Source: Xanthobacter agilis (lineage in GTDB: Bacteria > Pseudomonadota > Alphaproteobacteria > Rhizobiales > Xanthobacteraceae). Taken from it: a stretch of 64,000 nucleotides of DNA. Position 1 is the stretch's first letter. The number at the start of each line of letters is the position of its first letter. The translations under genes and the position numbers were made by a program. This document shows, piece by piece, positions 28,223 through 52,235 of the stretch. The stretch covers positions 1-64,000 of the forward strand of contig NZ_JABWGX010000005.1 of the NCBI RefSeq assembly GCF_021730435.1. Reading direction: 5' to 3'. Below the pieces are notes generated by a model that searched no databases, was not told where the DNA came from, and saw only the letters and a list, made by a program, of their open reading frames with translations.

Positions 28223-28223
28223 C

Positions 28224-28940: not shown

Positions 28941-29002
28941 AGCCCTCAATGCCCCTGACAGAGAAAAATGCCGGCGAAAAAGTCCGGTTGGGAGGAAATA
29001 CC

Positions 29003-30214: not shown

Positions 30215-30227
30215 GCCCAACTCAAGA

Positions 30228-30257
30228 CGGGCCGGCTTTCCCCCGCGAGCCGGCCCG
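30228..30257 (+). terminator. Hairpin between binding-protein and permease genes
   Basis: CGGGCCGGCT (30228-30237) and AGCCGGCCCG (30248-30257) form a perfect 10-bp stem with a 10-base loop, followed by CTTTCCCC. Such hairpins downstream of binding-protein genes commonly stabilise the upstream message or partly terminate, so that more binding protein than permease is made. Confidence 0.6.
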
Positions 30258-30283
30258 CTTTCCCCTGACGAGACGGATCTTCC

Positions 30284-31165: not shown

Positions 31166-31186
31166 GAGCCAATTGAGGCGGCTGCC

Positions 31187-34611: not shown

Positions 34612-35524
34612 GCGGCCTGGCGGGGCCGCATTTTGGCTCAGGCCGGTGCGGACCGGCTTCCACGACCAGCGCGCGGCGCTTGGCGGTTGCGTGACGGTGG
34701 GGGTGGCGGACCGCCGTCGGAGCGGCCTGGCCCCGCAGGGCACGCGGGATGGGGTGGAGGTGCGAGGACAGCGTCGGTCCGTCCGAGGGGTACCCGTGGC
34801 GCCGGATCCCGGCACGCCGCCATCGTCCTACTGCCATCGTCTTACCGCTATGGTCTTGCCGCGGCAGTGAGATATCGGGCCGGACGGTGATATGGGGGCT
34901 CACCATCCGGCCCGCTAACCCATGCCGGTCAGGGCTTGGCACGGGTAGCTCAATTCACATCGAGTTGGTCCGCTCGTCTCTGCGTCGGCGGCCAACAGCA
35001 CACGTTCTGATTATTTTAGCAATTTTTTACAGGAACGGAAAGAATGTATTCCGCGTGTTTTTGCGGTATTCCGTGGCCATCAATAGACGGCGCTATATTC
35101 AAATATATACAATGAATTCCAGTCTTACGTTGTATTTGAGGGTTATGTTGCGGGGCCTCTTCGCCATGCCTCTCATTTGCGGCGTGGTGTCCATTTAGGA
35201 AGGTTTCCGTAGCGATCATCTACTGCGCCACCAGTGATGTCGTGTCATGTATGCCTGTGATTCGCCTTCGCGGTCGGCTTTGCCCTGCGACATCGGTCCG
35301 AACGCGGCGCGACCAGCGCGGCGGCCGTTCCGCGAGGGTCGGGAGCGGGATGGGACACTGCGGCTGCGTATGGAATGGACCCGCGCGGCTATTCCAGCGC
35401 TTAATAGCGTGATGGTTTGCTGAAAAAATATGCAATTCGCTTATGCGGCTTGAAAATGGGCGGAGAAACGACACATGACTGTCGCAAGCCCTGTAGAGCC
35501 GGGGCGGTCGCCCGGTGGCCTCCC
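34612..35524. other. 913-bp region without a convincing gene
   Basis: The first part is GC-rich. It opens with a 9-bp inverted repeat, GGCCTGAGC (34605-34613, overlapping the previous stop) and GCTCAGGCC (34636-34644), a possible terminator. About 34990-35210 is strikingly AT-rich compared with the window, holding ATATATAC-like stretches and a 28-codon hydrophobic frame at 35111-35197 that I do not trust as a gene. The right end must contain the promoter of the sensor-kinase gene. No tRNA or repeat was found. The AT-rich island could be a remnant of transferred DNA. Confidence 0.5.
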
Positions 35525-37024
35525 ATGACCCAGCTTTCGAATAGCCATTACCGGACCGCATTCGAGAATGCGAGCGACGCCATCTTCATTCACGACCCCG
35601 AGGATGGGCACATCCTCGAGGCGAATGAGACGTCGGAATTGCTCACTGGCTATAGCCGGTCCGAATTGCTGTCCATGACCGTGGCGGGCATCAGCCCGGC
35701 GCGCACGCCTTTCAGCCTGGATCAGGCCTTGCGCCGCATCCGCCGCGCCACCGAGCAGGGCGGTTACACCTTCGAATGGACGATCCAGCCACGGGGCGGC
35801 GACGAGCTGCCGGTGGAGGTGAACCTGAAGCTGATTACGGTGGAAGGGCGCGGCCTGGTCTTGGCGCTGTTTCGCGACATCCGAGAGCGCAAGCTGTACG
35901 AGGAGCGCCTGATTGCACGCGAGGCGCATTTCCGCCGGCTGATCCAGCATTCCTCCGATGGCATCGCCATCGTGCTGCCCAATGGGCGGCTGCGTTATGT
36001 GTCGCCTTCGGTCTCGACGGTGCTCGGCTACGATGAACGCCGCGCCACCGGCCGCAACGTGCTGGACTACATCCACCCGAGCGACATCGAGCGTATTCGC
36101 CGCCTCTTGAGGCGTGAGGGCTCCCAGTGCCCGGACGCCGACGTGGCGCACCACGTCACCTACCGCATTCTCCACCGGGACGGCGGCTGGCGGCATCATG
36201 AGGCGACGGTGAAGGATCTGGTGCGCGCCTCGGAAATGGAAGGCATCCTCGTCAACTACCGCGACGTGACCGAGCGCGTGGAGGCCGAGCGCAAGGCGCG
36301 CGAGCGCGAACGGGAGCTGGAGCATGTGGCGCGGTGCCGCTCCATGGGCGAGCTGGCGTCGGCGCTGGCGCACGAGCTGAACCAGCCGTTCGCCGCCATC
36401 GGCAATTACATCGGCGGCTGCATCCACCGGCTGGAAAGCGGCCGCTTCGATCCGGGTGAAACCTTGACCGCCCTGCGCGAGGTGAACGCCCAGGCCGAGC
36501 GCGCCGGGCGCATCATGAGCTCCATCCTCAACTTCACCCGTCGCAACGATCCCCAGCGCCAGCAGGTGGACGTGAACGCAATGGTGCGGGACGTGGCGTC
36601 CTTTATCGACCTGAAGGCGGAGCGTTCCGATGCGCGGGTGGAATATCGCTTCAGCGCCACGCCGGTCGGCACGGTGGCCGATCCCATCCTGATCGAGCAG
36701 GTGATCCTCAACATTGCCTTCAACGGCATCGAGGCCATGGCCGGTACCGAGCCAGGGCGGCGCATTCTGCGCATCGCCACCGATCGGCTGCCGCGGGCGG
36801 TCCGCATCTCGATCGAGGACAATGGCCACGGCCTGCCGCGCATGAACCCCGATCAGATTTTCGACGCCTTCTACACCACCAAGAAGGAAGGGCTGGGCAT
36901 CGGCCTCGCCTTATGCCGCACCATCGTCGATTCCCACGCCGGGCACATGTGGGCGACGTCCGGAGCCACCGGCACGGTGTTCCATGTGGCATTGCCGGTC
37001 GCCAAGGAGGAGGGCCACGCATGA
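35525..37024 (+). CDS. PAS-PAS sensor histidine kinase (FixL/StyS-like)
   Basis: This 499-residue kinase has two PAS domains (about 5-130, beginning YRTAFENASDAIFIHDPEDGHILEANE, and 135-265, FRRLIQHSSDGIAIVLPNGRLRYVSPSVSTVLGYD). A short coiled segment (AERKARERERELEHVARC) follows, then HisKA and ATPase domains. The phosphorylated His283 is in LASALAHELNQPFAAIGNYIGGC, the FixL/DctB-type H-box. The N box is VILNIAFNGIEAM and the G boxes EDNGHGLP and GLGIGLALCRTIV. There is no membrane segment, so sensing is cytoplasmic. I chose the ATG at 35525; a TTG at 35417 is less likely. It overlaps the response regulator by four bases and precedes the catabolic operon, the same plan as StyS/StyR or TodS/TodT, but the heme-binding residues of FixL were not identified. 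Confidence 0.9.
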   Translation: MTQLSNSHYRTAFENASDAIFIHDPEDGHILEANETSELLTGYSRSELLSMTVAGISPARTPFSLDQALRRIRRATEQGGYTFEWTIQPRGGDELPVEVNLKLITVEGRGLVLALFRDIRERKLYEERLIAREAHFRRLIQHSSDGIAIVLPNGRLRYVSPSVSTVLGYDERRATGRNVLDYIHPSDIERIRRLLRREGSQCPDADVAHHVTYRILHRDGGWRHHEATVKDLVRASEMEGILVNYRDVTERVEAERKARERERELEHVARCRSMGELASALAHELNQPFAAIGNYIGGCIHRLESGRFDPGETLTALREVNAQAERAGRIMSSILNFTRRNDPQRQQVDVNAMVRDVASFIDLKAERSDARVEYRFSATPVGTVADPILIEQVILNIAFNGIEAMAGTEPGRRILRIATDRLPRAVRISIEDNGHGLPRMNPDQIFDAFYTTKKEGLGIGLALCRTIVDSHAGHMWATSGATGTVFHVALPVAKEEGHA

Positions 37025-37827: not shown

Positions 37828-38709
37828 ATGTCTCACACAGCACAGCGCATTTGTCTTGCCGTATCGTTGGTATTCTGTGGCGCCGGTGCCGCGCACGCCA
37901 CCGAGGGCGGCGGTGGCGCCTATCCCAACGGCGCCGAAAGCTTCATGACCGGCTATCTGCCGCCGCCCGGCTTCTATGTTGTCAGCTACAACGAGTACTA
38001 TACCGCAAGCAGCTTCAAGAACAGCAGCCCCATCTTCAACGATTTCAGCGTCGATGTGGCGGCCACCGTGTTCCGCGCGATCTATGTGAGCGACGTGCAG
38101 GTCTTCGGTGCCAATTGGGCGATGCATGCGTTCCTGCCCATCGCCAGCGTGGATGCCGCATTCGGCGGCATGTCTGGCCGCTCCTCCGGCATCGGCGACA
38201 TCATCATCGATCCGTTCATCCTGGGCTGGCACTTCGGCGAGTGGAATGTCGTCACCGGATTCGACATCACCTTGCCTACTGGAAAGTATGACCCGGAGTC
38301 CATCGCCAATCCTGGCCGGAATTATTTCACGTTCACGCCCGTCTTCGCCTTCACCTACCTGAACAAGGAGGGGTGGGAGCTTTCCGCGAAGATCATGTAT
38401 GACTTCAATACAGAGAACCAGGACACCAACTACCAGTCAGGCCAGGAACTGCATACGGACTTCGTGGCGGCGAAGCATTTCGGACCGTTCGCCATCGGCG
38501 TCGGCGGCTATGCCTACAAGCAGACCACGCCCGACAGTGGCCTTGGCGCGGTGTTCGGTGGGTTCGAGGGGCAGGCGGTCGCTCTTGGTCCGCAGCTCAT
38601 GTACACGTCCGGAAAAATCACGGCCGTGGCGAAATTCATGAGCGAATTCGCGGTCGAAAACCGGCCGCAGGGCGACAAGATCTGGATCAACATCGTCGCC
38701 GCCTTCTGA
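37828..38709 (+). CDS. Outer-membrane channel, phenol-degradation MetA/SphA type
   Basis: This 293-residue protein has a signal peptide (to about residue 25, cleavage after AHA) and a beta-barrel of aromatic-rich alternating strands ending in phenylalanine (VAAF), the outer-membrane assembly signal. The beginning TEGGGGAYPNGAESFMTGYLPPPGFYVVSYNEYY is typical of the phenol_MetA_deg/SphA family, found next to operons for uptake and breakdown of aromatic or other hydrophobic compounds. It is the first gene of the operon and probably lets the substrate across the outer membrane. No gene symbol is warranted. Confidence 0.88.
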   Translation: MSHTAQRICLAVSLVFCGAGAAHATEGGGGAYPNGAESFMTGYLPPPGFYVVSYNEYYTASSFKNSSPIFNDFSVDVAATVFRAIYVSDVQVFGANWAMHAFLPIASVDAAFGGMSGRSSGIGDIIIDPFILGWHFGEWNVVTGFDITLPTGKYDPESIANPGRNYFTFTPVFAFTYLNKEGWELSAKIMYDFNTENQDTNYQSGQELHTDFVAAKHFGPFAIGVGGYAYKQTTPDSGLGAVFGGFEGQAVALGPQLMYTSGKITAVAKFMSEFAVENRPQGDKIWINIVAAF

Positions 38710-38740
38710 TTTTTCATACGTCTTCCTGGAGTTCAAGATC

Positions 38741-40039
38741 ATGCCGGCTTTGCCCGTCATCGATGTGTTTTCCTATTCCGGCGGCATCGTCGGCCCCTCC
38801 GTTCCCATGCTTGGCCCGGTGGCCGATGGCGGCACCATCCGCACCGGAACGCCCCCCGGCTGTTGGGGCCCCATGATTACGCCAAAGTTCCAGGGCGGGC
38901 ATGAGGTGACCCAGCCGGTCGCGGTCGAGGGGGCCGAGGTGGGCGACGCGGTCGCCATCAAGATCCGCAAGATGCAGGTCACCTCGCTCGCCACCGCCTC
39001 GGGGGTGATGGAATTCGTGGAAGGGCGCTATCGCGGCGATCCCTTCGTCGCCAAGCTGTGCCCCGTCTGCGGCACCATGAGCCCGCCGAGCCATGTGGAG
39101 GGCATCGGCGACGAGGCGATCCATTGCGATGTGTGCGGCTCGGAGGTGAACGCGTTCCGCGTCTCCAACGGCTATGTGATCGTGCTGGACCGGGAGGCGG
39201 GCGTCAGCCTCACCGTGAGCAAGGCGGTGGCGGAGACGCTGGCGGGCGAGGCGAGCACCTTCTCCGCGCTGCCGGAACTGGCGCAGCAGCATTCCGTCCT
39301 CACCCTCGCCCATGCCGACATCGCGGGCCTTGCCGCCCACATGCAGCCGTTCCTGGGCAATATCGGCACCACCCCATCGGCGGACCTTCCGGACTCCCAC
39401 AATGCGGGCGATTTCGGTTCCTTCCTCATCGACGCGCCCCACACATACGCGCTGACGGCGGAGGCGCTCGCCGCCGCCAAGACCGATGGCCACATGGACA
39501 CCAATTCGGTGCGGGAAGGGGCGGTCCTGATCTGCCCGGTGAAGGTGAAGGGCGCCGGCATCTACATGGGCGACATGCACGCCCAGCAGGGCAACGGCGA
39601 GATCGCGGGCCACGCCACCGACGTCTCCGGCGAGACCGAGGTGGAGGTGGAGGTCATCAAGGGGCTCGGCATCGACGGCCCCATCCTGCTGCAGCGCCCC
39701 GACGACCTGCCCCCCATGGCGCGGCCCATGACCGGAGCCCAGAAGGCGGCGGTGAAGGCGCTGGGCGCCCGCTATGGGCAGATGGAGGTGGAGGAGAACG
39801 GCCCCATCACCTTCATCGGCTCCGCCGCCAACCTCAATGACGCCACCAGGAACGGCCTGGAGCGCGCCGCCGCCATCACGGGCCTGCCCTACGACGAGAT
39901 CCTGAACCGGGCCACCATCACCGGCTCCATCGAGATCAGCCGTCTGCCGGGCGTGGTGCGCGTCACCTTCCTCTGCCCCATGCCGATCCTGGAGCGCCTC
40001 GGGATCGCCCATCTCGTGCGCGCGCAATACGGACTTTGA
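38741..40039 (+). CDS. FmdA/AmdA-type acetamidase/formamidase family amidase
   Basis: This 432-residue protein resembles acetamidases/formamidases of the FmdA_AmdA family, which hydrolyse small amides to acid and ammonia. Family-like segments are TIRTGTPPGCWGPM, IKIRKMQV, NAGDFGSFLIDAP, CPVKVKGAGIYMGDMHAQQGNGEIAGHATD and the LSRLPGVVRVTFLCPM region near the end. Cys107, Cys110, Cys129 and Cys132 (CPVC and CDVC) look like a zinc-ribbon insertion. The ATG at 38741 follows GGAG by 12 bases. It sits between the channel gene and the Rieske oxygenase gene, so its amide is likely an intermediate or substrate of this pathway; an N-formyl or carboxamide compound is a guess. Confidence 0.87.
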   Translation: MPALPVIDVFSYSGGIVGPSVPMLGPVADGGTIRTGTPPGCWGPMITPKFQGGHEVTQPVAVEGAEVGDAVAIKIRKMQVTSLATASGVMEFVEGRYRGDPFVAKLCPVCGTMSPPSHVEGIGDEAIHCDVCGSEVNAFRVSNGYVIVLDREAGVSLTVSKAVAETLAGEASTFSALPELAQQHSVLTLAHADIAGLAAHMQPFLGNIGTTPSADLPDSHNAGDFGSFLIDAPHTYALTAEALAAAKTDGHMDTNSVREGAVLICPVKVKGAGIYMGDMHAQQGNGEIAGHATDVSGETEVEVEVIKGLGIDGPILLQRPDDLPPMARPMTGAQKAAVKALGARYGQMEVEENGPITFIGSAANLNDATRNGLERAAAITGLPYDEILNRATITGSIEISRLPGVVRVTFLCPMPILERLGIAHLVRAQYGL

Positions 40040-40050
40040 GGAGTATTTCC

Positions 40051-41253
40051 ATGTCTGAGACCCAGCAGAAGTGGGCCACCGCCTACCCGGAGCTCGGCAC
40101 TGGCCCCATTCCGGTGGAGCCCTGCGTGTCTCCGGCCTTCTTCGACGCCGAAATGGCGAAGGTATTCAAGAAGGCCTGGCTGAAGGTGGCGCGGGTGGAG
40201 GAAATCCCCAACGCCGGCGATTTCAAGGTGAAGAAGCTCTCGTTCGCCCATACCTCGGTCATCCTGATCCGGGGCAAGGATGGCGCCATCCGCGGCTTCC
40301 ACAACACCTGCTCCCATCGCGGCAACAAGGTGGTGGTGGAGACCGGCGACGAGACCTTCGGGTCCAGCAAGGCGGCGGTGGTGACCTGCCGGTTCCATGG
40401 CTGGGTCTATGATGCCAAGGGCGATCTGGTCTCGGTGCCGGAGGAAGAGAAGTTCCACGCCTGCTTCCATCGCGGCGAGAACGGCCTTGCCCCCGTGCGG
40501 ACCGAGGTGTGGGCCGGCTTCGTCTTCGTCAACCTGGATGCGGAGGGCAAGGAGAGCCTCACCGATTTCCTGGGCGGCATCGGCCGGCACCTCGGCGCCT
40601 ATCCTTACGAGAAGATGCCGCGCGCCTATGCCTACAATACGGTGCTGAACTGCAACTGGAAGGTCGCCCACGACGCGTTCGCGGAAGCCTATCACGTGGC
40701 CACCATCCACGCCGGCTCGTTCCCGAACGTGTTCACCTCCGGCCTCCAGAACGTGCAGCTGTTCGGGCCCCACCGCACCACGGCCATCTGCCTGTCCATG
40801 AATGCGGAAGCGAAGCCGGTGGCCAAGCTCGCCAATGCCATCACCGGCGCTTCGCTGGTCACCAATCGCGGCGCCTCCATGCTGCCGCCCACCGTCAATC
40901 CGGATCGCCGGCCCGACTTCTCCTTCGAATTGTCGGTGCTGTTCCCGAACCTGCTGCTGCATGTTTCCGAAGGCATCTGGTTCACCCACCAGTTCTGGCC
41001 GCTGGCCCACAACAAGACCCGCTGGGAAGGTCGCTATTATCTGCCCGCGCCGAAGACCAATTCGGAAGTCTGGGCGCAGGAGTTCTCCCAGGTGCTCCAG
41101 CGCAATGCGTGGCTCGAGGATACCGCGACCATGGAGGACACGCAGGACGCCCTCGAATCCGGCGCCAAGACCGTCATGCACCTTCAGGATGACGAGGTAC
41201 TGATCCGCCACGGCTACCACGCCCTCGAACAGTTCATGACCGCGGCCGAGTGA
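40051..41253 (+). CDS. Rieske non-heme iron oxygenase, catalytic subunit
   Basis: This 400-residue subunit inserts oxygen into an aromatic or related substrate, fed with electrons by the ferredoxin and reductase at the operon end. The Rieske [2Fe-2S] ligands are Cys87, His89, Cys113 and His116 (CSH, CRFHGW). The mononuclear iron site is AEAYHVATIH, with His215 and His220. The bridging acid before it is Glu212, whereas most ring-hydroxylating dioxygenases have Asp there; carnitine oxygenase CntA also uses Glu. The third iron ligand, usually a Asp/Glu near residue 350, was not pinned down. The ATG at 40051 has GAGGAG upstream. No classical beta subunit follows, although the NTF2-like protein at 41599 has the same fold. 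Confidence 0.93.
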   Translation: MSETQQKWATAYPELGTGPIPVEPCVSPAFFDAEMAKVFKKAWLKVARVEEIPNAGDFKVKKLSFAHTSVILIRGKDGAIRGFHNTCSHRGNKVVVETGDETFGSSKAAVVTCRFHGWVYDAKGDLVSVPEEEKFHACFHRGENGLAPVRTEVWAGFVFVNLDAEGKESLTDFLGGIGRHLGAYPYEKMPRAYAYNTVLNCNWKVAHDAFAEAYHVATIHAGSFPNVFTSGLQNVQLFGPHRTTAICLSMNAEAKPVAKLANAITGASLVTNRGASMLPPTVNPDRRPDFSFELSVLFPNLLLHVSEGIWFTHQFWPLAHNKTRWEGRYYLPAPKTNSEVWAQEFSQVLQRNAWLEDTATMEDTQDALESGAKTVMHLQDDEVLIRHGYHALEQFMTAAE

Positions 41254-41263
41254 GGACGAACCG

Positions 41264-41602
41264 ATGACTGAGACTCTTCCCGCGGCTTTCGCAAGCCTGT
41301 CCCCCTTCACCGCCTGGGCGCTGGGCACCCAGGACGCGCGCCAGCACAAGCGCATCACCTCCACCAAGGCGGAGCTGAAGGCGTTCTACGACGCGGTGCT
41401 GCCCGAGCTGCCCAAGATGCTGGAGTATGTGGACCAGTATCCCCTCGGGCAGGTGCCCGCCGAGGCCAAGCCGGTGTTCTGGATGGCGCTCTCCATGGCG
41501 GAGGTCGCGCCCCATGTGGAACTGTACCGCGGCGATCCGAAGGTGCCCCACTCGTTCGACGAGGCCCGCTTCGTGGCCGAGCACGGACGGGTGCCGGCAT
41601 GA
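41264..41602 (+). CDS. Small operon protein of unknown function
   Basis: This 112-residue protein is not recognised. It is helix-rich (ITSTKAELKAFYDAVLPELPKMLEYVDQY, then FWMALSMAEVAPHVELY) and has no signal peptide, membrane segment or cysteine. Two short histidine-containing stretches (QHKRI, VPHSFDEARF) are present but form no known motif. It starts ten bases after the oxygenase and overlaps the next gene by four bases, so it is a fixed part of the operon. A role as an accessory to the oxygenase is a guess from position only. Confidence 0.75.
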   Translation: MTETLPAAFASLSPFTAWALGTQDARQHKRITSTKAELKAFYDAVLPELPKMLEYVDQYPLGQVPAEAKPVFWMALSMAEVAPHVELYRGDPKVPHSFDEARFVAEHGRVPA

Positions 41603-42081
41603 ACGCGGCCGGCGGACTGGAGAGGCGGCTGGCGCGGCTCGAAAGCGCCGAAGCGATCCGCAACCTGGTCGGCCTTTATGCCCTCGGCGCGGATCGCCGC
41701 AACGACCCGGAGATCTTTTCCGGGCTGTTCACGGACGATGCGGAATGGGAGGCGGCCGGCTTCGGCCGCTTCCAGGGGCGCGACCTCATCGTCGCGGAAC
41801 TCGCCCGCATCGGCCGCGAAACCATCGTCTGGACCCTGCATTACATGACCTCGCCGGTGGTGGAGATCGACGAGGAGGGAACAGGCGCCCGCTGCCGCTG
41901 GTGGCTGTGGGAGCTCTCCAAGATCAAGGATCAGCCGGGCGCCGAGCCGGTCGCCCACTTCCTGGGCGGCACCTACGACACGCGGCTCGAACGGACGCCG
42001 GACGGCTGGCGTTTTTCCCGCGTCGTGCTCGATCTGCCCCTCGTCAGTCCCCACGCGCCAGGCTTCAAGACCCGGCCGTGA
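41599..42081 (+). CDS. NTF2/SnoaL-like small protein
   Basis: This 160-residue protein has the SnoaL_4/NTF2-like fold. The start LERRLARLESAEAIRNLVGLYALGADRRNDPEIFSGLFTDDAEWE is the usual helix pair and first strand, and HYMTSPVVEIDEEGTGARCRWWLWELSK the central sheet. Two jobs are possible. It could be an oxygenase beta subunit, since those share the fold, or an enzyme acting on a pathway intermediate, like the small protein of indole clusters that converts 3-hydroxyindolin-2-one onward (recalled, not verified). It overlaps the preceding gene by ATGA and is 25 bp from the StyA-like gene. Confidence 0.82.
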   Translation: MNAAGGLERRLARLESAEAIRNLVGLYALGADRRNDPEIFSGLFTDDAEWEAAGFGRFQGRDLIVAELARIGRETIVWTLHYMTSPVVEIDEEGTGARCRWWLWELSKIKDQPGAEPVAHFLGGTYDTRLERTPDGWRFSRVVLDLPLVSPHAPGFKTRP

Positions 42082-42106
42082 CCTTCCCGATTTCAAGGAA
42101 CATCCC

Positions 42107-43372
42107 ATGCGCAAGATCGCCATCATCGGCGGCGGGCAGGCCGGTCTGCTGCTCGGCTTCGGCCTGATCGACAAAGGCTACGACGTCACGATCTATTCCG
42201 ACCGCACGGCGGAGCAGGTGCTGCATTCGCGCCTCGCCACCACCGCCTTCCTGTTTGAAAGCTCGCTGAAGATCGAGCGCGACCTGTGCCTCAATTTCTG
42301 GGAAGACCTCGGCCCCTATGGCGAGGGCATCCATGTCGACTTCCGCGCCCCCGACGGCATGGTGGGGCTCTCGGTGCAGGGCCGGCTCGGGGTCAACCAC
42401 GGGCAGGCGCTGGACGTGCGCACCAAGTTCCATCGCTGGATGAACGAATTCGCCCGGCGCGGCGGGCGGCTCGTGATCCAGGCCATCACCATCGCCGATC
42501 TCGAGCGGATCTCGGCCGAGAACGACCTCACCATCGTGGCGGCCGGCAAGGGGGCCATCACCGCCCTGTTCGAGCGCGACGACGCCCGCTCGCCCCACAA
42601 GGTGCCGCCGCGCAATCTCGCCGCGGTGCTGGTGACCGGCTCCAACCTCACCGGCGACCGGCCGTGGCGCGAGATTCCGTTCCGCCCGCTGCGCTTCAAT
42701 TTCATCGCCGGGGCAGGCGAATACTTCTCATTGCCCTTCTACACCCACACCAAGGGGGAGTGCCGCAGCTTCCTGTTCGAGGCCATTCCTGGCGGACCCA
42801 TGGATGTGTTCCAGGACGTCAAGGACGGCGCGGAGATGGTGGCCACCGTGCGCGAGGTGGTGAAGCGCCTCACGCCGGACCAGGCCGAGCATGTGCCCGA
42901 CGACATGGAGATCACCGACGCCAACGCCTGGCTGAAGGGGTCGTTCACGCCCGTCATCCGCAAGCCGGTGGGCGTGCTGCCCTCGGGCAACATCGTGTTC
43001 GGCGTCGGTGACGCCCTCGTGCTCAACGACCCCATCGCCGGCCAGGGCGCGAACAACGCAAATCGCATGGTGAAGGCCTATCTCTCCGCCATCCTGGAAC
43101 ACGGCGACAAGCCTTTCGATCGCGCGTGGATGGAGGAGTTGTTCAACGGCTTCTGGGAGACCTCGGGGCAGTACACCTGCGCTTTCACCAATGCGCTTCT
43201 GGTGCCGCCGCCGCCATCGGTGCTGGAGATCCTGGGCGCCGCCTCCAAGGTGCCGGTCATCGCCGACGAATTCTGCGGCAATTTCAACGATCCCCCCCGC
43301 TTTTGGCCGGCGATCGCCGATCTCGACGCGGCCAAGCGCTATGTGGCGTCGAAGGTGGCCCATGTCGCGTGA
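42107..43372 (+). CDS. StyA-like FAD-dependent monooxygenase (group E)
   Basis: This 421-residue protein resembles styrene and indole monooxygenases, which use FADH2 supplied by a separate reductase to epoxidise an alkene or indole. Features are the FAD site IIGGGQAGLLLGFGL (residues 6-20), YSDRTAEQVLHSRL and the second FAD motif NIVFGVGDALVLNDPIAGQGANNANR. There is no NAD(P)H-binding motif, as expected for two-component enzymes. Residues near 45-49 (TTAFL) differ from the Asn-Val-His set I recall for styrene enzymes and from the Ser-Gln-Met set for indole enzymes, so the substrate may be different. It overlaps the reductase gene by 11 bases. Confidence 0.92.
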   Translation: MRKIAIIGGGQAGLLLGFGLIDKGYDVTIYSDRTAEQVLHSRLATTAFLFESSLKIERDLCLNFWEDLGPYGEGIHVDFRAPDGMVGLSVQGRLGVNHGQALDVRTKFHRWMNEFARRGGRLVIQAITIADLERISAENDLTIVAAGKGAITALFERDDARSPHKVPPRNLAAVLVTGSNLTGDRPWREIPFRPLRFNFIAGAGEYFSLPFYTHTKGECRSFLFEAIPGGPMDVFQDVKDGAEMVATVREVVKRLTPDQAEHVPDDMEITDANAWLKGSFTPVIRKPVGVLPSGNIVFGVGDALVLNDPIAGQGANNANRMVKAYLSAILEHGDKPFDRAWMEELFNGFWETSGQYTCAFTNALLVPPPPSVLEILGAASKVPVIADEFCGNFNDPPRFWPAIADLDAAKRYVASKVAHVA

Positions 43373-43919
43373 TGTGTCGCCTGAGACCGGGGTGGCGACG
43401 GTGGCCGCTGTGGCGGGTGCGGAAGCGGAGCGGCGCGCCTTGCGCCACTCCCTCTCCCTCTACGCCACGGGGGTCTGCGTGATCACAACTTTGGCGCCGG
43501 ATGGCGAGAAGGTGGGGCTGACGGTGAATTCGTTCGCCTCGGTCTCCCTGGATCCGCCGCTGGTGCTGTGGAGCCTCGCCAGGACGTCGCCGCGCGTGCC
43601 GGTGTTCCGGGGCGCGACCCATTTCGCCGTCAATGTGCTGTCGGGCGCCCAGGAGGAGCTGTGCAACCGCTTCGCCCGTCCTGGCGCCGACCGGTTCGCT
43701 GGGCTCGATCTCGATGCGGGCGCCGGCGGGGCGCCGCTGCTGCCTGGCTGCCTCGCCACCTTCGAGTGCGCCCGGCACGAGGTGGTGGAGGGCGGCGACC
43801 ACGTCATTCTCATCGGCAAGGTGCTGACCCATACGCGCGGGTCTGCCGCCGATGCGCTGGTGTTCTGCAACGGAGCGTTGCGGAACTGGTCCGGACTGCG
43901 GGAGGTGGCTCATGGCTGA
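43362..43919 (+). CDS. StyB-like flavin reductase
   Basis: This 185-residue NAD(P)H:flavin reductase should deliver reduced FAD to the StyA-like monooxygenase encoded just before it. The core RHSLSLYATGVCVITTLAPDGEKVGLTVNSFASVSLDPPLVLWSLAR is the flavin-binding split-barrel signature of the HpaC/StyB family, and GGDHVILIGKVL with an RNW-containing end also fits. About 30 variable residues precede the core; the ATG at 43362 lies in the last codons of the monooxygenase gene, so translation is coupled. Members prefer NADH, which cannot be confirmed here. Confidence 0.92.
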   Translation: MSRDVSPETGVATVAAVAGAEAERRALRHSLSLYATGVCVITTLAPDGEKVGLTVNSFASVSLDPPLVLWSLARTSPRVPVFRGATHFAVNVLSGAQEELCNRFARPGADRFAGLDLDAGAGGAPLLPGCLATFECARHEVVEGGDHVILIGKVLTHTRGSAADALVFCNGALRNWSGLREVAHG

Positions 43920-44697
43920 GTTTTCCGGCAAGGTTGCCATCGTGACCGGCGGCGCGACCCTGATCGGCGCCGCCGTCGCGGAAAGCTTGGTGTCGGCGGG
44001 CGCGTGCGTCGTCGTGGTGGACATCGATACGGACCGCGGCGCGCGGGTGGCCGAGGGGCTTGGCGCGCGGGGCCTGTTCATCCCCACGGATGTGGGCGAT
44101 GACGCGGCCATCGCCGCCGCGGTGGCGGCCACCCTCGCTCGTTTCGGGCGCATCGATGTTCTGGTGAATGCGGCGGCCTGCTACATCGACCAGGGTGCGG
44201 CCTCGCCCCGCGCGGACTGGGCGGCGGCCTTCAATGTCAATGTGTTCGGCGGCGTGGCCCTGGTTCAGGCGTGCCGGCCGCATATGGCGGCCCAGGGCGG
44301 CGGGGCGGTGGTGAACTTCACCAGCGTCTCCGGGCGCATCGCCCAGGCCGGGCGCTGGGTCTATCCCGCCACCAAGGCCACCATCGAGCAGGTCACGCGC
44401 TCACAGGCTCTCGATCTCGCCGGCGACGGCATCCGGGTGAATGCGGTGTCCCTGGGCTGGACCTGGTCCGCGCCCATCTCCGCGATGGTGAAGGCCGACC
44501 GGGCGAAGGCGGATCGCATCGCCGGCCCGCTGCACATCACCGGCCGGGTGGGGGATCCGAAAGAGGTGGCGGAAGCGGTGCTGTTCCTGGCCTCGCCGCG
44601 TGCCTCGCTCATCACCGGCACCACCGTGGCGGTGGATGGCGGCTATCTGGCCCTGGGGCCGGAAGGGCGGGGCCTTTCCCTGACGGAGTTGTTGTGA
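43912..44697 (+). CDS. Short-chain dehydrogenase/reductase
   Basis: This 261-residue classical SDR oxidises an alcohol or diol to the ketone with NAD(P). The active site is Ser138, Tyr151 and Lys155 (VNFTSVSG, VYPATK). Asp37 after the second strand (VVVVDIDTD) favours NAD over NADP. The cofactor motif TGxxxGxG is altered: TGGATLIG puts Leu where the central Gly is normal, and the NNAG motif reads NAAA. In an indole-type route it would oxidise the dihydrodiol, but that is inferred from context. The ATG at 43912 has GGGAGG upstream and overlaps the reductase gene by eight bases. Confidence 0.9.
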   Translation: MAEFSGKVAIVTGGATLIGAAVAESLVSAGACVVVVDIDTDRGARVAEGLGARGLFIPTDVGDDAAIAAAVAATLARFGRIDVLVNAAACYIDQGAASPRADWAAAFNVNVFGGVALVQACRPHMAAQGGGAVVNFTSVSGRIAQAGRWVYPATKATIEQVTRSQALDLAGDGIRVNAVSLGWTWSAPISAMVKADRAKADRIAGPLHITGRVGDPKEVAEAVLFLASPRASLITGTTVAVDGGYLALGPEGRGLSLTELL

Positions 44698-45026
44698 TGA
44701 CGGGCATCCTGACGGCCGAAGCCGTGCTCTGCCGCGCCGCCGACGTGCCCGAGGGCGGGGCGCTGCGGGTTGAGCGGGACGACGGGCCGCCGCTGGCGGT
44801 GTTCCATGTGGGCGGGCGCTTCTATGTGACCGACGACACCTGCACCCATGGCGAGGCCTCCCTTTCCGAGGGCGAGATCGACGCCGAGGAATTGCTGGTG
44901 GAATGCCCGTGGCATTCGGGCGCCTTCGATCTGGCGACCGGCGCCCCGTGTGGGGCGCCCTGCACCATCGCCTTGCGCGTGCATCGTTTCGAGCTGCGCG
45001 GCGGCGACATCGTGCTGGTGCCCTGA
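44697..45026 (+). CDS. Rieske ferredoxin
   Basis: This 109-residue electron carrier should pass electrons from the reductase at 45028 to the Rieske oxygenase at 40051. The cluster ligands are Cys49, His51, Cys70 and His73 in CTHGEASLSEG and CPWHSGAFD, the usual spacing for three-component oxygenase ferredoxins. The length is typical. It starts with ATG sharing one base with the SDR stop codon (TGATG), so expression is coupled. One base separates its stop from the next start. Confidence 0.93.
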   Translation: MTGILTAEAVLCRAADVPEGGALRVERDDGPPLAVFHVGGRFYVTDDTCTHGEASLSEGEIDAEELLVECPWHSGAFDLATGAPCGAPCTIALRVHRFELRGGDIVLVP

Positions 45027-45027
45027 C

Positions 45028-46008
45028 ATGGCGCGGATCACTTTGGAGAGCGGCGCCAGCTATGAATGCGACGCCGGCGACACCGTGTTGCGCGCGGGCC
45101 TGCGGGCCGGGCTCGGGCTGCCTTATGAATGCAATGCGGGCGGCTGCGGCACCTGCAAGGTGGAGATCCTGGCCGGGGTGGTGGAGCCCCTGTGGCCGGA
45201 TGCGCCGGGCCTGTCCGATCGCGACCGGCGCAAGGGCCGGGTGCTGGCGTGCCAATGCCGCCCGCTCGCCGATTGCCGGCTGAAGGTGCGGGAAGACCCG
45301 GCCTGCGTGCCGCCGGTGCCGCCGGAGCGGCGGCGGGCGGTGCTGGATGGCGTCGAGGATATCACCCACGATATCCGCAGCTTCCGGTTTCGCAGCGAGG
45401 GACCGGCCCGGTTCCTGCCGGGGCAATATGTGATGCTGACGCTGCCGGACGGCCTGGAGCGGGCCTATTCCCTCGCCAATCTCCCCAACGCGGCCGGCGT
45501 GTTCGAGGTGATGGTGCGGCGCGTGCCGGGCGGGCGGATGGGGGAGCGCCTGTTCGGCACGCCCCCCGACGCGGTCACGATCGATGGGCCGTTCGGCCTC
45601 GCCTTCCTCCGTCCGGGGGAGCGGGATGTCGTGTGTCTTGCAGGGGGCTCCGGCCTTGCGCCCATGGTGTCCATCGCCCGCGCCGTGGCGGCGGAGCCGA
45701 CGTCTCGGCGCGTCGTCTTCTTTCATGGCGGGCGCACCGGGGCCGATGTGCTGGATGTGGCCCGCATCGATGCCCTGACGGGGCTCGGCCCGCGTCTCAC
45801 CTATGTGCCGGTGGTGTCGGGAGAGGCCATTCGCGGGCTTGCCCACGGGCTGGTGCACGACGTCGCCGCAGCCTGGCTCGATGGGTCGGTGGACGGGTTT
45901 GATTATTATTGCGCCGGTCCGCCGCCGATGACGCAGGCGGTGGAAAACCTTCTGGTCCGCAATGCGGGCCTGTCCGCGGAACGGGTGCGGTTCGATCGCT
46001 TCTTCTGA
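45028..46008 (+). CDS. Ferredoxin-type oxygenase reductase
   Basis: This 326-residue reductase takes electrons from NADH to the Rieske ferredoxin. The N-terminal plant-type [2Fe-2S] domain has Cys35, Cys40, Cys43 and Cys75 (YECNAGGCGTCKVE, LACQC). The FAD domain follows with RAYSLAN, which binds the flavin, and the NAD domain with CLAGGSGLAPMVSIARA and YYCAGPPPM. The order ferredoxin-FAD-NAD is that of class IB reductases such as BenC and XylZ, which normally feed an oxygenase directly. Here a separate Rieske ferredoxin is also encoded, so one chain carries two [2Fe-2S] relays. It is the last gene, followed by a strong terminator. Confidence 0.93.
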   Translation: MARITLESGASYECDAGDTVLRAGLRAGLGLPYECNAGGCGTCKVEILAGVVEPLWPDAPGLSDRDRRKGRVLACQCRPLADCRLKVREDPACVPPVPPERRRAVLDGVEDITHDIRSFRFRSEGPARFLPGQYVMLTLPDGLERAYSLANLPNAAGVFEVMVRRVPGGRMGERLFGTPPDAVTIDGPFGLAFLRPGERDVVCLAGGSGLAPMVSIARAVAAEPTSRRVVFFHGGRTGADVLDVARIDALTGLGPRLTYVPVVSGEAIRGLAHGLVHDVAAAWLDGSVDGFDYYCAGPPPMTQAVENLLVRNAGLSAERVRFDRFF

Positions 46009-48118: not shown

Positions 48119-49048
48119 ATGACCGACAATCCTGAAACCATCAGCCTGTATCAGTTCTTCCAGCGGTTCCCAGACGAGGAAACTGCTCGCAAGTACTTCG
48201 AGAACAACCGCTGGACCGGTGAAGTCTGCTGCCCCCATTGCGGCAGCTTGTCGGTGGCGGAGGTCAAGAACCACAAGCCGATGCCCTACCGCTGCCGGGG
48301 CTGCCGCCAGCACTTCAGCGTCCGCACTGGCACCGTTCTGGCCGAATCGCGCTTACCGCTGCAAAAGTGGCTCATGGCGATCTACATGATGACCACGGCG
48401 CGCAAGGGCATTCCGTCCACGCAGATGGCGCGCGAACTCGGCATCACGCAAAAGTCGGCTTGGTTCCTTGCGCAGCGCATCCGCGAAACTTGGCTGGCCG
48501 GCCAATGGGGTGGCATGGGCGATCATGTCCAGGTCGATGAAACCTATGTCGGCGGTCGCGAGAAGAACAAGCACGCCGACAAGAAGCTTCGCGCTGGTCG
48601 CGGGTCGGTCGGTAAGACCGCCGTTGCCGGCATCCGCTCGGAGACTGGCGAAGTCCGCGCGGTCGTCGTCGCTGATACCAAGGCCGGGACGCTCGGCGCT
48701 TTCGTGCAGGATCATGCCAACCCCGGCGCTACGGTCGTTACTGACACCGACGGCGGCTACGTTGAGCTTGAAGCCGCTGGCTTCAACCATATCCGCATCA
48801 ATCCCTCGGTTGGCGAGTACGTCCGCGACATGGCCCATACCAACGGGATCGAAAGCTTCTGGTCGCTGCTCAAGCGCGGCTACATCGGTATCTACCACTA
48901 CATGAGCGCGAAGCACCTGCATCGCTACGTCAACGAGTACTCATTCCGCCACAACACCGCTCGCGCTGGCACCATGCCGTTCATCGACATGACGCTTCGC
49001 CGGTCGGTCGGGAAGCGCCTCACCTACAAGGGCCTGATCCATGCCTGA
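48119..49048 (+). CDS. IS1595-family transposase (ISXO2-like)
   Basis: This 309-residue enzyme has an N-terminal zinc-ribbon (CCPHCG about 37-42 and CRGC about 60-63). A helix-turn-helix-like segment follows (IPSTQMARELGITQKSAWFLAQRI), then an RNase H-like DDE/N domain: VQVDETYVGGREKN for the first Asp, VVTDTDGGYVELE for the second, and HTNGIESFWSLLKRGYIGIYHYMS for the last acidic/Asn segment. This is the IS1595/ISXO2-like family. It looks intact. The ATG at 48119 lies 7 bases after the predicted -10 box, so initiation would be almost leaderless. It overlaps the ParA-like gene by eight bases. Confidence 0.92.
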   Translation: MTDNPETISLYQFFQRFPDEETARKYFENNRWTGEVCCPHCGSLSVAEVKNHKPMPYRCRGCRQHFSVRTGTVLAESRLPLQKWLMAIYMMTTARKGIPSTQMARELGITQKSAWFLAQRIRETWLAGQWGGMGDHVQVDETYVGGREKNKHADKKLRAGRGSVGKTAVAGIRSETGEVRAVVVADTKAGTLGAFVQDHANPGATVVTDTDGGYVELEAAGFNHIRINPSVGEYVRDMAHTNGIESFWSLLKRGYIGIYHYMSAKHLHRYVNEYSFRHNTARAGTMPFIDMTLRRSVGKRLTYKGLIHA

Positions 49049-50351
49049 CGACAAGAAGATGATCGAGCCGATCAACGCGGACTTTGATGCGGTCGCCAAG
49101 GCCATGGTGTCGAACCTGACTGATGGTCCTTCAGCCACTCCAAAAAGCCCCGCGCCACGGGATCGGCTAGAAACTCAATCTAGCGGTCAGGATGCCCCCC
49201 GTGGCACGGCGGGGGCCAGCACTTCGATTCGCAGTTCAACCTCCGCGGGGGAGATTCCAGTAGCCAAAGTCGTTTCGCTCTTTAATCACAAAGGCGGCGT
49301 CAGCAAGACCACTACCGCCTTTCACCTTGGGTGGAAGCTGGCCCGGCTCGGGAAACGGGTTCTGATTGTGGATGCCGATCCGCAATGCAACCTAACTGGC
49401 TTAACGCTGGGAATAGAGGATTACGACTCGCTGTTCGCTTTTTACGACAGCAAGCAGAACACAGACATTTTCAGCAGTCTTGCCCCGGTGTTCGCGCTGG
49501 GCGGTGACACGGTATCTTCTCAGGGAGGGAAGACGCCGATTACTAAGACCAACAATCCAAACCTGTTCATCCTTGCTGGGAACATACGATTTTCGGAGAT
49601 CGACACTCAAATTGCCACCGCATTGACCAGCAGCGCGACAATTCCGATTCTGCGCCGGTTTGTAAGCGCATTTAACGAATTGATACGCCGAGTCGCAAAA
49701 GAGAATGCCGTTGATATAGTTTTGATCGATATGAGCCCGAGCGTATCGGCCACAAATCACTGCATTCTAATGAGTTCAGACTATTTCATAATTCCAATTT
49801 CTCCTGATTTCTTCTGCTATCAGGCTATGGATTCGCTTAGCAACGTTTTTCCGCGGTGGGTTGATGAAATATCAAGCTTTAAAGACGGAGGTGCAGATTC
49901 TTTGCCTGTCAACAATCCAAAAATGCTTGGATATATATCTCAAAACTACAGAATTTACACGGTAGAAGATAAGACTGAAACGTCGGATCAAAAGCAAATG
50001 TCGAAAGCCTATGTTGAGTGGCTCCAAAAGATAAAAGTACTTGTATCAGAAAAGCTTGTCCCCGTTCTGCAGAGCAAGGGCATGATTATTAACGAGCAGG
50101 AATTTCGGGATGCAGTTGGATATGATGAACCTTACCACCTCGCAGGGGTTCAGAATTTCAGCGGTTTGATACCAGTCTCTCAAAAACTTTCGAAGCCTAT
50201 CTTTGAACTAACGTCAGCAGACGGCCAATGGACCGGTGCGCGCTGGGTGCGAAAGGATGCCAAGGGTAAGGAGCATGGGATCAAGGTGAACATTGAAGAA
50301 GCTAACATGGTCTATACCCGTCTCGCGGAGGCCATCATCGCCATGGCATAG
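49041..50351 (+). CDS. ParA/Soj-like ATPase carried by the element
   Basis: This 436-residue protein is a ParA/MinD-type P-loop ATPase. The deviant Walker A is FNHKGGVSKTTTAFHL (about 81-96), with the signature Lys before GG, then VLIVDADPQCNLTGL (A') and IVLIDMSPSVSATN (Walker B). The first 70 or so residues are Ser/Pro/Ala-rich and disordered-looking. The C-terminal part from about 260 is not a standard ParA region. The coding sequence is clearly AT-rich compared with flanking genes, a sign of recent transfer. No parB or parS is nearby, so plasmid partition is doubtful. Its overlap with the transposase gene suggests it belongs to the element, as passenger or transposition helper; neither is proven. 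Confidence 0.87.
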   Translation: MPDDKKMIEPINADFDAVAKAMVSNLTDGPSATPKSPAPRDRLETQSSGQDAPRGTAGASTSIRSSTSAGEIPVAKVVSLFNHKGGVSKTTTAFHLGWKLARLGKRVLIVDADPQCNLTGLTLGIEDYDSLFAFYDSKQNTDIFSSLAPVFALGGDTVSSQGGKTPITKTNNPNLFILAGNIRFSEIDTQIATALTSSATIPILRRFVSAFNELIRRVAKENAVDIVLIDMSPSVSATNHCILMSSDYFIIPISPDFFCYQAMDSLSNVFPRWVDEISSFKDGGADSLPVNNPKMLGYISQNYRIYTVEDKTETSDQKQMSKAYVEWLQKIKVLVSEKLVPVLQSKGMIINEQEFRDAVGYDEPYHLAGVQNFSGLIPVSQKLSKPIFELTSADGQWTGARWVRKDAKGKEHGIKVNIEEANMVYTRLAEAIIAMA

Positions 50352-50432: not shown

Positions 50433-52235
50433 TTATGCCGCACCCCGCGCGCGCCAGGCGCGCCAGCCGCCGAAGGCGGTGATGTCTTCGGCCTGGGCCA
50501 CCGCATGGGCCTCGCACAGGAAGCCGCTGGCGCTGGTGCCGTCATCGAGGCTGATCTTGCCGATGCCGAGGGGGGCCGGAATGGCGGCCACGAATGCGCC
50601 GAAGGCGGCGGGCGGCAGGCCCCACACCTCCACCTCCAGGCCGGGTCCGGAGAAACCGGGGGTCCGGATCAGGCCCGGCTTGGGCGGCAGGGTGCCGGGC
50701 AAGGCGTAAAGCTGATAATCCGGCGTGGTGCGGCAGGCCTTCAGGAGGACGCCGCCGGCCCGCGTCAGCTCGGGATTGAGCGGCATGCCTGTGAGATGGG
50801 CGCCCACCACCACCAGCGGAACCAGTCCCTCGCGGGAGGGGGCGAGGCGGGCCTGTTCGGGGATCGCGGCGGCACGGTCGTGGCCGAGACCGGTGGCGGC
50901 GGCCCGGTGCAGCCGGTCCGCCAGCACGGCGAGGTCATCGTCGCAGAAGGCGGGGGCGACCAGGGTGACGCCCACCGGCAGCCCGTCCGCCCGGAAGCCG
51001 GAGGGCACCGCCACGGCGCAGCAGTCCAGCAGGTTCACGAAATTGGTGTAGCGCCCCAGCATGGCATTGAGGCCGATGGGGTCGGCCCGCATCTCGGCGA
51101 CGGTGGTGATGCGCGGCGCGGTGGGCAGCAGCAGCACGTCCATCTTCGCCCATTCGGCGTCGGTGGCCTTGCGATAGGCCTCGAGGGCATAGGCGCCGCA
51201 GAAGGCGTCCACCGCCGAGAACTGCCGCGCGCCTTCGATGATGGTGCGCACGGTGGCATCGATGTCGGCGGCGTGGGCATCGAAGAAGGTCTGAACCGCC
51301 GCCAGCCGCTCGGCCACCCAGGGGCCGCCATAGAGCAGGCTCGCGCAATCGCGGAAGGGGGCGTAATTGATCGCCACCATGGTGCCGCCGAGGGCCGTCA
51401 GGCGGGCGGCTGCGGCGTCGTAGAGGGCCTCGGCCTCGGTGTCGCCGGCGAAGACGCGTTCCTTGCCGCTGAGCACGCCGAAGCGGAATCCGGCGAGGGG
51501 CAGGGAACGCGGGGCGGCGGCGCGGGAATAGACATCGCCCTCGTCCTCCCCCTGCATGATCTGCCGCACGAGGGTGGCATCCCCGGCGGTGGCGCCGAGC
51601 ACGGAGATGCAATCGATGCTCCGGCAGGCCGGCACCAGGCCGGTATTGGGCACGAGCCCCTTGGTGGGCTTCACCCCCACCAGATTGTTGAACGCCGCCG
51701 GCACGCGCCCGGAGCCGGCGGTGTCGGTGCCCAGCGCGAAGGCGACCTGGCCGGAGGCGACCGCCACCGCCGAGCCGGAGGACGAGCCGCCCGAAACGTA
51801 GTCGGGATTGAACACGCTGCGCGGCGCGCCATAGGGCGAGCGGGTGCCGTTGAGGCCGGTGGCGAACTGGTCGAGATTGGTCTTGCCGATGACGAGCGCG
51901 CCCGCTGCCTTCAGCCGCGCCACGGTGGCCGCATCCCGCTGCGGCGCATAGGCGAAGGCGGGGCAGGCGGCCGTGGTCGCAAGCCCCTTCACATCGATAT
52001 TGTCCTTCACCGCGAAGGGGATGCCCCACAAGGGCCGGGCCTCGCGCCCGCCCTCGGCCATGAGCGCGCGGGCGGCGGCGCGCAGGTCGTCATCCGCGAA
52101 TCTGGAGATCCATACGGCGGGGTCGGTGCCCGCGTGGAGGCGACGGATCACCTCCTCGATGACGTCGAGCGGCGTGACGGTGCCGGCCGCGTAGCCCGCC
52201 TTCAAGGTCGAAATGTCGAGCATGTCCGGCAGCAT
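50433..52235 (-). CDS. atzF: Allophanate hydrolase
   Basis: This 600-residue enzyme hydrolyses allophanate to ammonia and carbon dioxide, the last step of the pathway. The amidase-signature domain covers about residues 20-440 with the Ser-cisSer-Lys triad: Lys77 in FAVKDNIDVKG, the cis-Ser in SGGSSSGSAVAVA (about residue 152) and the nucleophile Ser175 in GTDTAGSGRVPA. The C-terminal domain (about 460-600), a gamma-glutamylcyclotransferase-like fold, is complete, ending in the GFLCEAHAV region. Its start codon overlaps the carboxylase stop by one base, so it is the final gene of the guanidine operon. The IS1595-type element lies 46 bp beyond its stop. Confidence 0.95.
   Translation of the reverse strand: MLPDMLDISTLKAGYAAGTVTPLDVIEEVIRRLHAGTDPAVWISRFADDDLRAAARALMAEGGREARPLWGIPFAVKDNIDVKGLATTAACPAFAYAPQRDAATVARLKAAGALVIGKTNLDQFATGLNGTRSPYGAPRSVFNPDYVSGGSSSGSAVAVASGQVAFALGTDTAGSGRVPAAFNNLVGVKPTKGLVPNTGLVPACRSIDCISVLGATAGDATLVRQIMQGEDEGDVYSRAAAPRSLPLAGFRFGVLSGKERVFAGDTEAEALYDAAAARLTALGGTMVAINYAPFRDCASLLYGGPWVAERLAAVQTFFDAHAADIDATVRTIIEGARQFSAVDAFCGAYALEAYRKATDAEWAKMDVLLLPTAPRITTVAEMRADPIGLNAMLGRYTNFVNLLDCCAVAVPSGFRADGLPVGVTLVAPAFCDDDLAVLADRLHRAAATGLGHDRAAAIPEQARLAPSREGLVPLVVVGAHLTGMPLNPELTRAGGVLLKACRTTPDYQLYALPGTLPPKPGLIRTPGFSGPGLEVEVWGLPPAAFGAFVAAIPAPLGIGKISLDDGTSASGFLCEAHAVAQAEDITAFGGWRAWRARGAA

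Follow-up and report, generated by a model that had tools for sequence, protein, structure and literature searches.

What does a bacterium break down with an operon that combines a StyA-like flavoprotein monooxygenase, a Rieske oxygenase and an amidase-family protein? The question is raised by positions 37828-46008 of a 64,000-nucleotide stretch of Xanthobacter agilis DNA (contig NZ_JABWGX010000005.1, positions 1 to 64,000; hereafter the window), which are filled by ten plus-strand genes that lie no more than 31 bases apart or overlap by 4-11 bases. By Pfam they encode, in order, a Phenol_MetA_deg outer-membrane protein, an FmdA_AmdA protein, a Rieske + Ring_hydroxyl_A oxygenase alpha subunit, a 112-residue protein that belongs to no Pfam family, a SnoaL_4 protein, a Smoa_sbd monooxygenase, a Flavin_Reduct protein, a short-chain dehydrogenase/reductase (SDR), a Rieske ferredoxin and a Fer2+FAD+NAD reductase. 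The original prediction, which had described ten tightly packed genes holding two oxygenase systems, an amidase-family protein, an SDR, an NTF2-like protein and a channel, is borne out by these coordinates and families. Judged from sequence, the substrate is most likely skatole (3-methylindole) or another 3-substituted indole, because the gene layout and enzyme assays reported for a skatole degrader, strain p38, point that way, and because the StyA-like protein belongs to a clade without the fingerprints of styrene monooxygenases (SMOs) or indole monooxygenases (IMOs). The fuller proposal, that the operon imports and mineralises skatole or a close 3-substituted indole via catechol, has in our estimation about an even chance of being correct.

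Acinetobacter piscicola p38 was isolated on skatole, and the paper describing it assigns gene1684 to a Rieske alpha subunit, 1687 to a "styrene monooxygenase", 1688 to its flavin reductase and 1690 to a Rieske ferredoxin (PMC11434297). Counted from the Rieske alpha gene, the StyA-like gene of this cluster (genes ~1682-1691) thus lies at +3, the flavin reductase at +4 and the ferredoxin at +6, which is the spacing seen in the window. Purified 1687 and 1688, given FAD and NAD(P)H as cofactors, broke down both indole and skatole, and 1684, 1687 and 1690 appear in the list of genes upregulated on skatole (PMC11434297). A 2026 paper names 1687 as a putative skatole monooxygenase and distinguishes skatole monooxygenases from those for styrene and indole, in part because they lack both fingerprints (PMC13101512). 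The first step, oxidation by the StyA-like enzyme, is therefore already tied to skatole in print and is not new; with the p38 spacing matching and 1687 and 1688 oxidising skatole and indole, the pathway cannot be called "undescribed", as the original prediction had it. From the p38 gene numbering and the matching Acinetobacter plasmids we infer that the p38 and window clusters share one layout, and it is by layout and reasoning that the window StyA clade would be linked to the proven skatole enzymes.

The window StyA-like protein scores 96 bits for Smoa_sbd in Pfam against a cut-off of 25, which places it among group E flavoprotein monooxygenases, and falls below the NCBIfam StyA equivalog cut-off (194.6 of 550 bits). 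At positions 46/48/50/96 it has T/A/L/G, where SMOs have N/V/H/S and IMOs S/Q/M/A; positions 73 and 76 of the fingerprint were not used, as the alignment did not return the published IMO letters there even for IMOs. None of the 28 clade proteins (the window protein and 27 linked ones) has N-V-H or S-Q-M at positions 46/48/50, and the same alignment recovered N-V-H in all four styrene-type rows and S-Q-M in all ten indole-type rows. These 28 form a single clade (support 95/95), distinct from the clades of IMOs and SMOs, in a tree that omits the truncated L051 and in which the long branches (L120, L032 and the SMO rows) are badly placed, none of them inside the 28-row clade. A styrene operon was rejected because of the fingerprint, the NCBIfam StyA score and missing genes. 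That some other bicyclic or alkenyl aromatic (another 3-alkylindole, an indole acid, quinoline or styrene) is the native substrate, the likeness to p38 being one of type only, is distinctly improbable: it would suit the 55% identity between the window and Acinetobacter StyA-like proteins, whose pocket letters differ (TAL against STF), and the StyA-less modules described below, which speak for more than one entry oxygenase, but the ten-gene order is kept between the Xanthobacter-type and Acinetobacter clusters, and styrene itself is unlikely given the missing SMO letters and the lack of a Pfam match to the styrene-oxide isomerase family among the ten genes.

The window SDR is 50% identical to IifB of A. 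baumannii and 29% to IacE, while the flavin reductase is 53% identical to IacG, 41% to IifD and 31% to StyB. IifB is reported to oxidise 2,3-dihydroxyindoline (PMC7225977), and skatole is therefore expected to yield 3-hydroxy-3-methyloxindole, a compound that has been found with SkaA (PMC13101512). Published work has IifA converting 3-hydroxyindolin-2-one to anthranilate; no significant match to IifA was found among the 14 window proteins compared, and on chemical grounds the quaternary C3 of 3-hydroxy-3-methyloxindole, which bears no hydrogen, would block an IifA-type route. The missing IifA and the differing IMO letters led to the rejection of a plain indole-to-anthranilate cluster, and what is supported is the predicted N-heteroaromatic pathway related to the indole clusters, with the Rieske system and FmdA as extras. 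Indole rather than skatole could still be the native substrate of the same enzymes, with dioxindole split into catechol and glycolamide, and the p38 enzyme's activity on both compounds, the upregulation of p38 gene1684 on indole (PMC11434297) and the closeness of the window SDR to IifB all favour this. It is nonetheless improbable, as the window set has no IifA, its StyA-like protein does not carry the IMO letters S-Q-M, and p38, according to the same paper, keeps a separate indole enzyme (gene1650) and has the StyA-like 1687 in its skatole list only.

The operon is not confined to this genome. The Rieske alpha alignment was scanned against GTDB genomes, giving 71 loci (from the best 80 of 217 matches), to which three plasmid loci were added; 28 of these 74 carry a StyA-like gene. 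Since all 28 also carry FmdA (at least 60%), the 112-residue gene adjoining Rieske alpha and SnoaL, the gene grouping is not a matter of chance. The kinase and regulator genes found beside the window operon have counterparts of at least 40% identity in 26 of the 28, the exceptions being L035 and L042, the latter a short contig. Hosts comprise Acinetobacter, Xanthobacter, Zavarzinia, Zoogloea and relatives, Ideonella, Parasulfuritortus, Burkholderia, Paraburkholderia, Pandoraea and Cupriavidus. The search for a conserved ten-gene block that the original prediction had proposed found the same order on two plasmids of Acinetobacter, recovered from pig manure and pig faeces, and variants in other genera. 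On both plasmids the ten genes are followed by regulator and kinase genes on the opposite strand, and one has genes for catA, catC, a muconate cycloisomerase and a 3-oxoacid CoA-transferase as neighbours. In Burkholderia, Paraburkholderia, Pandoraea and Cupriavidus the genes are rearranged, with a porin and an NCS1-type permease alongside, and the SDR and ferredoxin genes of Ideonella and Parasulfuritortus are separated by a gene belonging to one cluster, whose tested copy is FadL/TodX-like. The window Rieske alpha is 71-73% identical to its Acinetobacter orthologues; the nearest named relative, Xanthobacter sp. NM-59, matches at 93% in Rieske alpha and at 95% in StyA.

FmdA, Rieske alpha, the 112-residue protein and SnoaL cohere more tightly with one another than any of them does with StyA, and this module is also found without StyA in the 74-locus set. 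Sixty-five loci have 3 kb on both sides and were binned by Rieske alpha identity. The 30 loci at 68% or above all hold FmdA, the 112-residue gene and SnoaL, with StyA in 26 and a catechol dioxygenase in 5; the 26 at 55-68% hold FmdA in 14, the 112-residue gene in 25, SnoaL in 25, StyA in none and a catechol dioxygenase in 18; and the nine at 40-55% hold the 112-residue gene in 8, SnoaL in 8, a catechol dioxygenase in 1 and neither FmdA nor StyA. Across the 65, the 112-residue gene adjoins Rieske alpha in 63. Among 385 genomes drawn independently from the class, five had Rieske alpha at 56% or above and four had FmdA at 56% or above, all four shared, while the StyA clade (at least 80%) occurred in two. 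Catechol ring-cleavage genes lie within the fetched stretch in 28 of the 74 loci (22 CatA-like, 6 extradiol; one of each was checked by Pfam), five of them StyA-bearing (L018, L049, L035, L055 and L057). The window's own genome, which comprises 4.8 Mb in 66 contigs, carries homologues of catA, catB and catC on a contig other than that of the window (C24).

Two of the StyA-less loci indicate how the module may be fed. In Polynucleobacter (L058, 5482-14997) StyA is replaced by an FMO-like monooxygenase gene, which with an IifB-like SDR gene (52%) precedes FmdA-Rieske, and catechol meta-cleavage lower-pathway genes stand in front, as checked on the homologous genes of L061 and L063. In Novosphingobium AAP83 (L084, 2158-12408) an FMO gene, assigned only by its membership of the same gene cluster as that of L058, and an IifB-like SDR (47%) lie within about 6 kb of the module. 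From these arrangements it follows that the module may serve several entry enzymes. Separately, sphingomonad loci (L019, L064, L065, L068-L074, L076-L080, L082, L100 and others) often have one or two extra Rieske alpha paralogues with their own 112-residue-type gene, together with cat genes, a gene of the Asp/Glu racemase family and TonB receptors; these paralogue loci would serve a different substrate.

Besides the response of p38 gene1684 to indole, several observations weigh against mineralisation of skatole via catechol. The metabolites reported for p38 include anthranilate and benzoate, with no oxindole or lactamide in the available text (PMC11434297), and the substrates of the window and Acinetobacter StyA-like enzymes may differ, to go by TAL against STF. 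The FmdA protein lies far under the NCBIfam formamidase equivalog cut-off (41.9 of 500 bits), and Rieske alpha is only 27% identical to IacC, in the Rieske half. A close FmdA is not in reach in 12 of the 26 loci with Rieske alpha at 55-68%. Of the 28 loci with StyA, 23 show no catechol dioxygenase within the stretch fetched, and most catechol-dioxygenase neighbours belong to StyA-less sphingomonad loci; the catechol tally, made without a random-locus control, includes one weak CatA-like match (L098, 32%), and a weak 31% extradiol match also occurs in two of the 13 iif-type or other StyA comparison loci (L023 and L024).

The proteins of the module carry features that bear on their roles. The FmdA protein exceeds the Pfam FmdA_AmdA cut-off (146 bits against 27), its clade shows 77% mean column identity when taken over 18 members, and an additional CxxC...CxxC motif is present in 46 of 46 clade members but in none of the 16 remote FmdA relatives that turned up in these loci. 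Of 64 Rieske alpha relatives at 55% identity or above, all have the Rieske motif, 63 have the 2-His motif and 47 fit a strict pattern for the Asp of the third ligand; the Rieske motif of the ferredoxin is kept in all 59 relatives. The predicted three-component Rieske system stands as to alpha subunit, ferredoxin and reductase, but needs correcting in that no Pfam match to Ring_hydroxyl_B, the beta subunit, was found among the ten genes; the three components are the alpha subunit, the Rieske ferredoxin and the reductase, accompanied by two more small proteins. One of these, the 112-residue protein, is modelled as all-helical with a predicted local distance difference test score (pLDDT) of 91.3, and the model matched no PDB fold (best E 2.4); its identification as IacB was ruled out for want of a match. 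On Rhodococcus qingshengii plasmid RQCS_2 (L020:9941-12690), a Rieske alpha gene (40%) is followed by that of a 124-residue relative (32%) of the 112-residue protein and by a VanB-type reductase gene, and the small family reaches Actinomycetota.

The other small protein, SnoaL, could be taken for an ordinary Rieske beta subunit, a reading that is not favoured. Its model (pLDDT 95.5) matches the folds of LinA, LdpA, scytalone-dehydratase-like and BaiE structures, and a single Rieske-complex chain, 7yls_A, ranks 44th in the same search; Pfam gives SnoaL_4 rather than Ring_hydroxyl_B, and the best folds are lyases and dehydratases. All 33 sequences compared keep Asp32 and His81, which in the alignment fall on an Asp and a His in LinA and in BaiE; these form the catalytic pair in both. 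LdpA cleaves a C-C bond.

These observations can be joined into a candidate pathway. An aromatic signal would act on the kinase/regulator pair and switch the operon on, and the compound would enter through the outer-membrane channel. The StyA-like oxygenase and its flavin reductase would epoxidise the 2,3 bond, by extension from the published oxidation of skatole and indole by the p38 enzymes; water would open the epoxide and the IifB-like SDR, if it acts as IifB does, would oxidise C2 to give 3-hydroxy-3-methyloxindole. Because C3 has no hydrogen and no IifA is present, a Rieske route is proposed instead of the anthranilate route: the Rieske oxygenase (alpha, ferredoxin and reductase, with the 112-residue protein helping) would dioxygenate the two ring-fusion carbons, and the resulting diol would collapse, perhaps with SnoaL as a lyase, breaking the C-N and C-C links to the ring to leave catechol and lactamide. 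The carbon balance of this split fits (9 = 6 + 3). The FmdA protein would then hydrolyse lactamide to lactate and ammonia, while catechol would pass to ring cleavage. The original prediction's "amide-yielding" was a fair guess, as the preferred mechanism would release a small amide.

The order of the last steps could also be reversed, with FmdA first opening the lactam of 3-hydroxy-3-methyloxindole to 2-(2-aminophenyl)lactate and the Rieske enzyme then dioxygenating the C- and N-bearing ring carbons, in the manner of anthranilate dioxygenases, to release ammonia, lactate and catechol. Sequence cannot tell this order from lactamide release, and the FmdA gene both precedes the Rieske gene and tracks it; the Rieske alpha subunit matches NCBIfam anthranilate dioxygenase models (best E 8e-27), and the ferredoxin reductase resembles AntC (30%) and BenC (NCBIfam, 174 of 430 bits). 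We consider it unlikely all the same, since the anthranilate model score lies far under its cut-off (94 of 671.9 bits) and FmdA/AmdA enzymes are, to our knowledge, known for small open-chain amides and not for lactams.

The logic of the lactamide-releasing mechanism would fit indole-3-acetate breakdown by the iac cluster as well, with malamate and IacH, and the mechanism agrees with the presence of an amidase alongside a Rieske enzyme in each of the two systems. An alpha-hydroxy-acid enzyme gene adjoins iacH in Marinomonas iac clusters (PMC11373566), which would suit hydroxy-amide release; among the gene clusters listed for the present loci no alpha-hydroxy-acid gene stood out, though no search aimed at such neighbours was made. 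It is conceivable, though we hold it only tentatively, that FmdA-Rieske-112-residue protein-SnoaL is a general breaker of 3-hydroxy-oxindoles, severing both links that join the five-membered ring to the benzene ring to give catechol and a 2-hydroxy-amide hydrolysed by FmdA, coupled to StyA-type and perhaps FMO-type entry oxygenases and forming a functional counterpart of the IacC/D-IacH step in auxin breakdown.

The regulatory pair and the ten genes are set out in Table 1. A StyS/StyR-like pair had been predicted upstream, and the likeness holds for the regulator; the kinase is 29% identical to the StyS fragment of Pseudomonas sp. VLB120 and, with its plain domain chain, shorter than that protein (2928 bases in the record). 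The channel is predicted to take up the hydrophobic substrate, and clusters of other genera hold a FadL/TodX protein (L041) and a porin (L053).

Table 1. Genes of the operon and of the adjoining two-component system, with window coordinates.
Feature	Position	Strand	Basis and remarks
Sensor histidine kinase, PAS-PAS-HisKA-HATPase	35417..37024	+	Pfam; 535 residues; start codon unsure
StyR-like response regulator, LuxR-type helix-turn-helix	37021..37689	+	Pfam; 46% to StyR of Pseudomonas sp. VLB120
Outer-membrane channel, Phenol_MetA_deg family	37828..38709	+	Pfam, 227 bits; 30% to outer-membrane protein beside A. baumannii iifABCD
FmdA/AmdA-family protein with extra CxxC...CxxC	38741..40039	+	Pfam, 146 bits
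Rieske non-haem iron oxygenase alpha subunit	40051..41253	+	Pfam Rieske + Ring_hydroxyl_A
112-residue helical protein, putative Rieske partner	41264..41602	+	No Pfam family; neighbour tally; structure model
SnoaL_4/NTF2-fold protein, proposed lyase	41599..42081	+	Pfam; fold matches; invariant residues
StyA-like group E flavoprotein monooxygenase, proposed skatole epoxidase	42107..43372	+	Pfam Smoa_sbd; own clade
Flavin reductase feeding the StyA-like enzyme	43362..43919	+	Pfam Flavin_Reduct; 53% to IacG
SDR dehydrogenase, IifB-like	43912..44697	+	Pfam SDR; 50% to A. baumannii IifB
Rieske-type ferredoxin	44700..45026	+	Pfam; GTG start at 44697 also possible
Ferredoxin reductase, Fer2+FAD+NAD, BenC/AntC-like	45028..46008	+	Pfam; NCBIfam BenC; AntC comparison

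Further genes flank the operon. Upstream, 27419-32179 holds ATP-binding cassette (ABC) transporter genes of the branched-chain-amino-acid type (two ATPases, a binding protein and two permeases), possibly for an aromatic or amide compound, and 32320-34611 a 763-residue gene in which a pyridine-nucleotide-disulphide reductase plus its reductase C-terminal domain is joined to a patatin phospholipase and DUF3734; a counterpart 86% identical to this fusion lies beside the Xanthobacter NM-59 cluster. Downstream, an IS1595-type transposase gene and then that of a ParA-like ATPase occupy 48119-50351, where G+C content is 56% against 63-74% elsewhere in the window; read from this composition and the transposase, the segment is a recent insertion adjoining the operon. 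An allophanate hydrolase-like gene (Amidase + AH_C domains) follows on the minus strand at 50433-52235.

Skatole is a faecal odour compound and, in manure and sewage, one of the chief odorants and pollutants. In open-licence PMC papers no assignment was found for the FmdA, Rieske, 112-residue or SnoaL steps with skatole; PMC13101512 says that the downstream skatole steps need work, and PMC7225977 states the DOAA-to-catechol step in indole-3-acetate breakdown as unfilled. While the link of the first enzyme to skatole is known, the present analysis suggests a candidate ring-breaking module as what is new. By naming a small gene set, a predicted product (lactamide) and a role for FmdA, the operon makes the route from 3-hydroxy-oxindole to catechol directly testable, and it points to an uncharacterised small protein family, that of the 112-residue protein, tied to Rieske oxygenases.

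Among known systems, the sty styrene operon resembles the window in its StyA-type oxygenase (30%), flavin reductase (31%) and two-component regulator StyR (46%), and differs in fingerprint letters, remaining genes and architecture. The iif indole cluster (A. baumannii type, L105) resembles it in an IifB-like SDR (50%), IifC-like oxygenase (43%), flavin reductase (41%) and MetA-type outer-membrane protein (30%), but has IifA with its dienelactone-hydrolase domain, leads to anthranilate and has no Rieske/FmdA module of the window kind. The record of L105, NZ_CP064203.1, is a 3.97-Mb Acinetobacter baumannii sequence listed as a plasmid with 39 features; it holds clusters of both the iif and the iac kind and appears to be a chromosome. 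The iac indole-3-acetate cluster (L114), whose pathway ends in catechol according to published papers, parallels the window in pairing a flavin-dependent oxygenase and reductase (IacG, 53%) with an SDR, a Rieske enzyme, an amidase and SnoaL_4. It differs in using an acyl-CoA-dehydrogenase type oxygenase (IacA, to which none of the ten genes gave a significant match), an amidase-signature amidase and a Ring_hydroxyl_B subunit, and, the reductase apart, its proteins either show 25-29% likeness to those of the window or give no match. For the p38 cluster, whose orthology to the window is probable from layout, the paper assigns the monooxygenase step only, and the word "amidase" is absent from its main text (PMC11434297). 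The skaCDZEFGHAIJKRLB cluster of Rhodococcus differs in having 14 genes in another order and is likened to the window by gene content and not by Rieske sequence, but like the window it unites a group E skatole monooxygenase and flavin reductase with a three-component ring-hydroxylating oxygenase and a LuxR-type regulator (PMC13101512).

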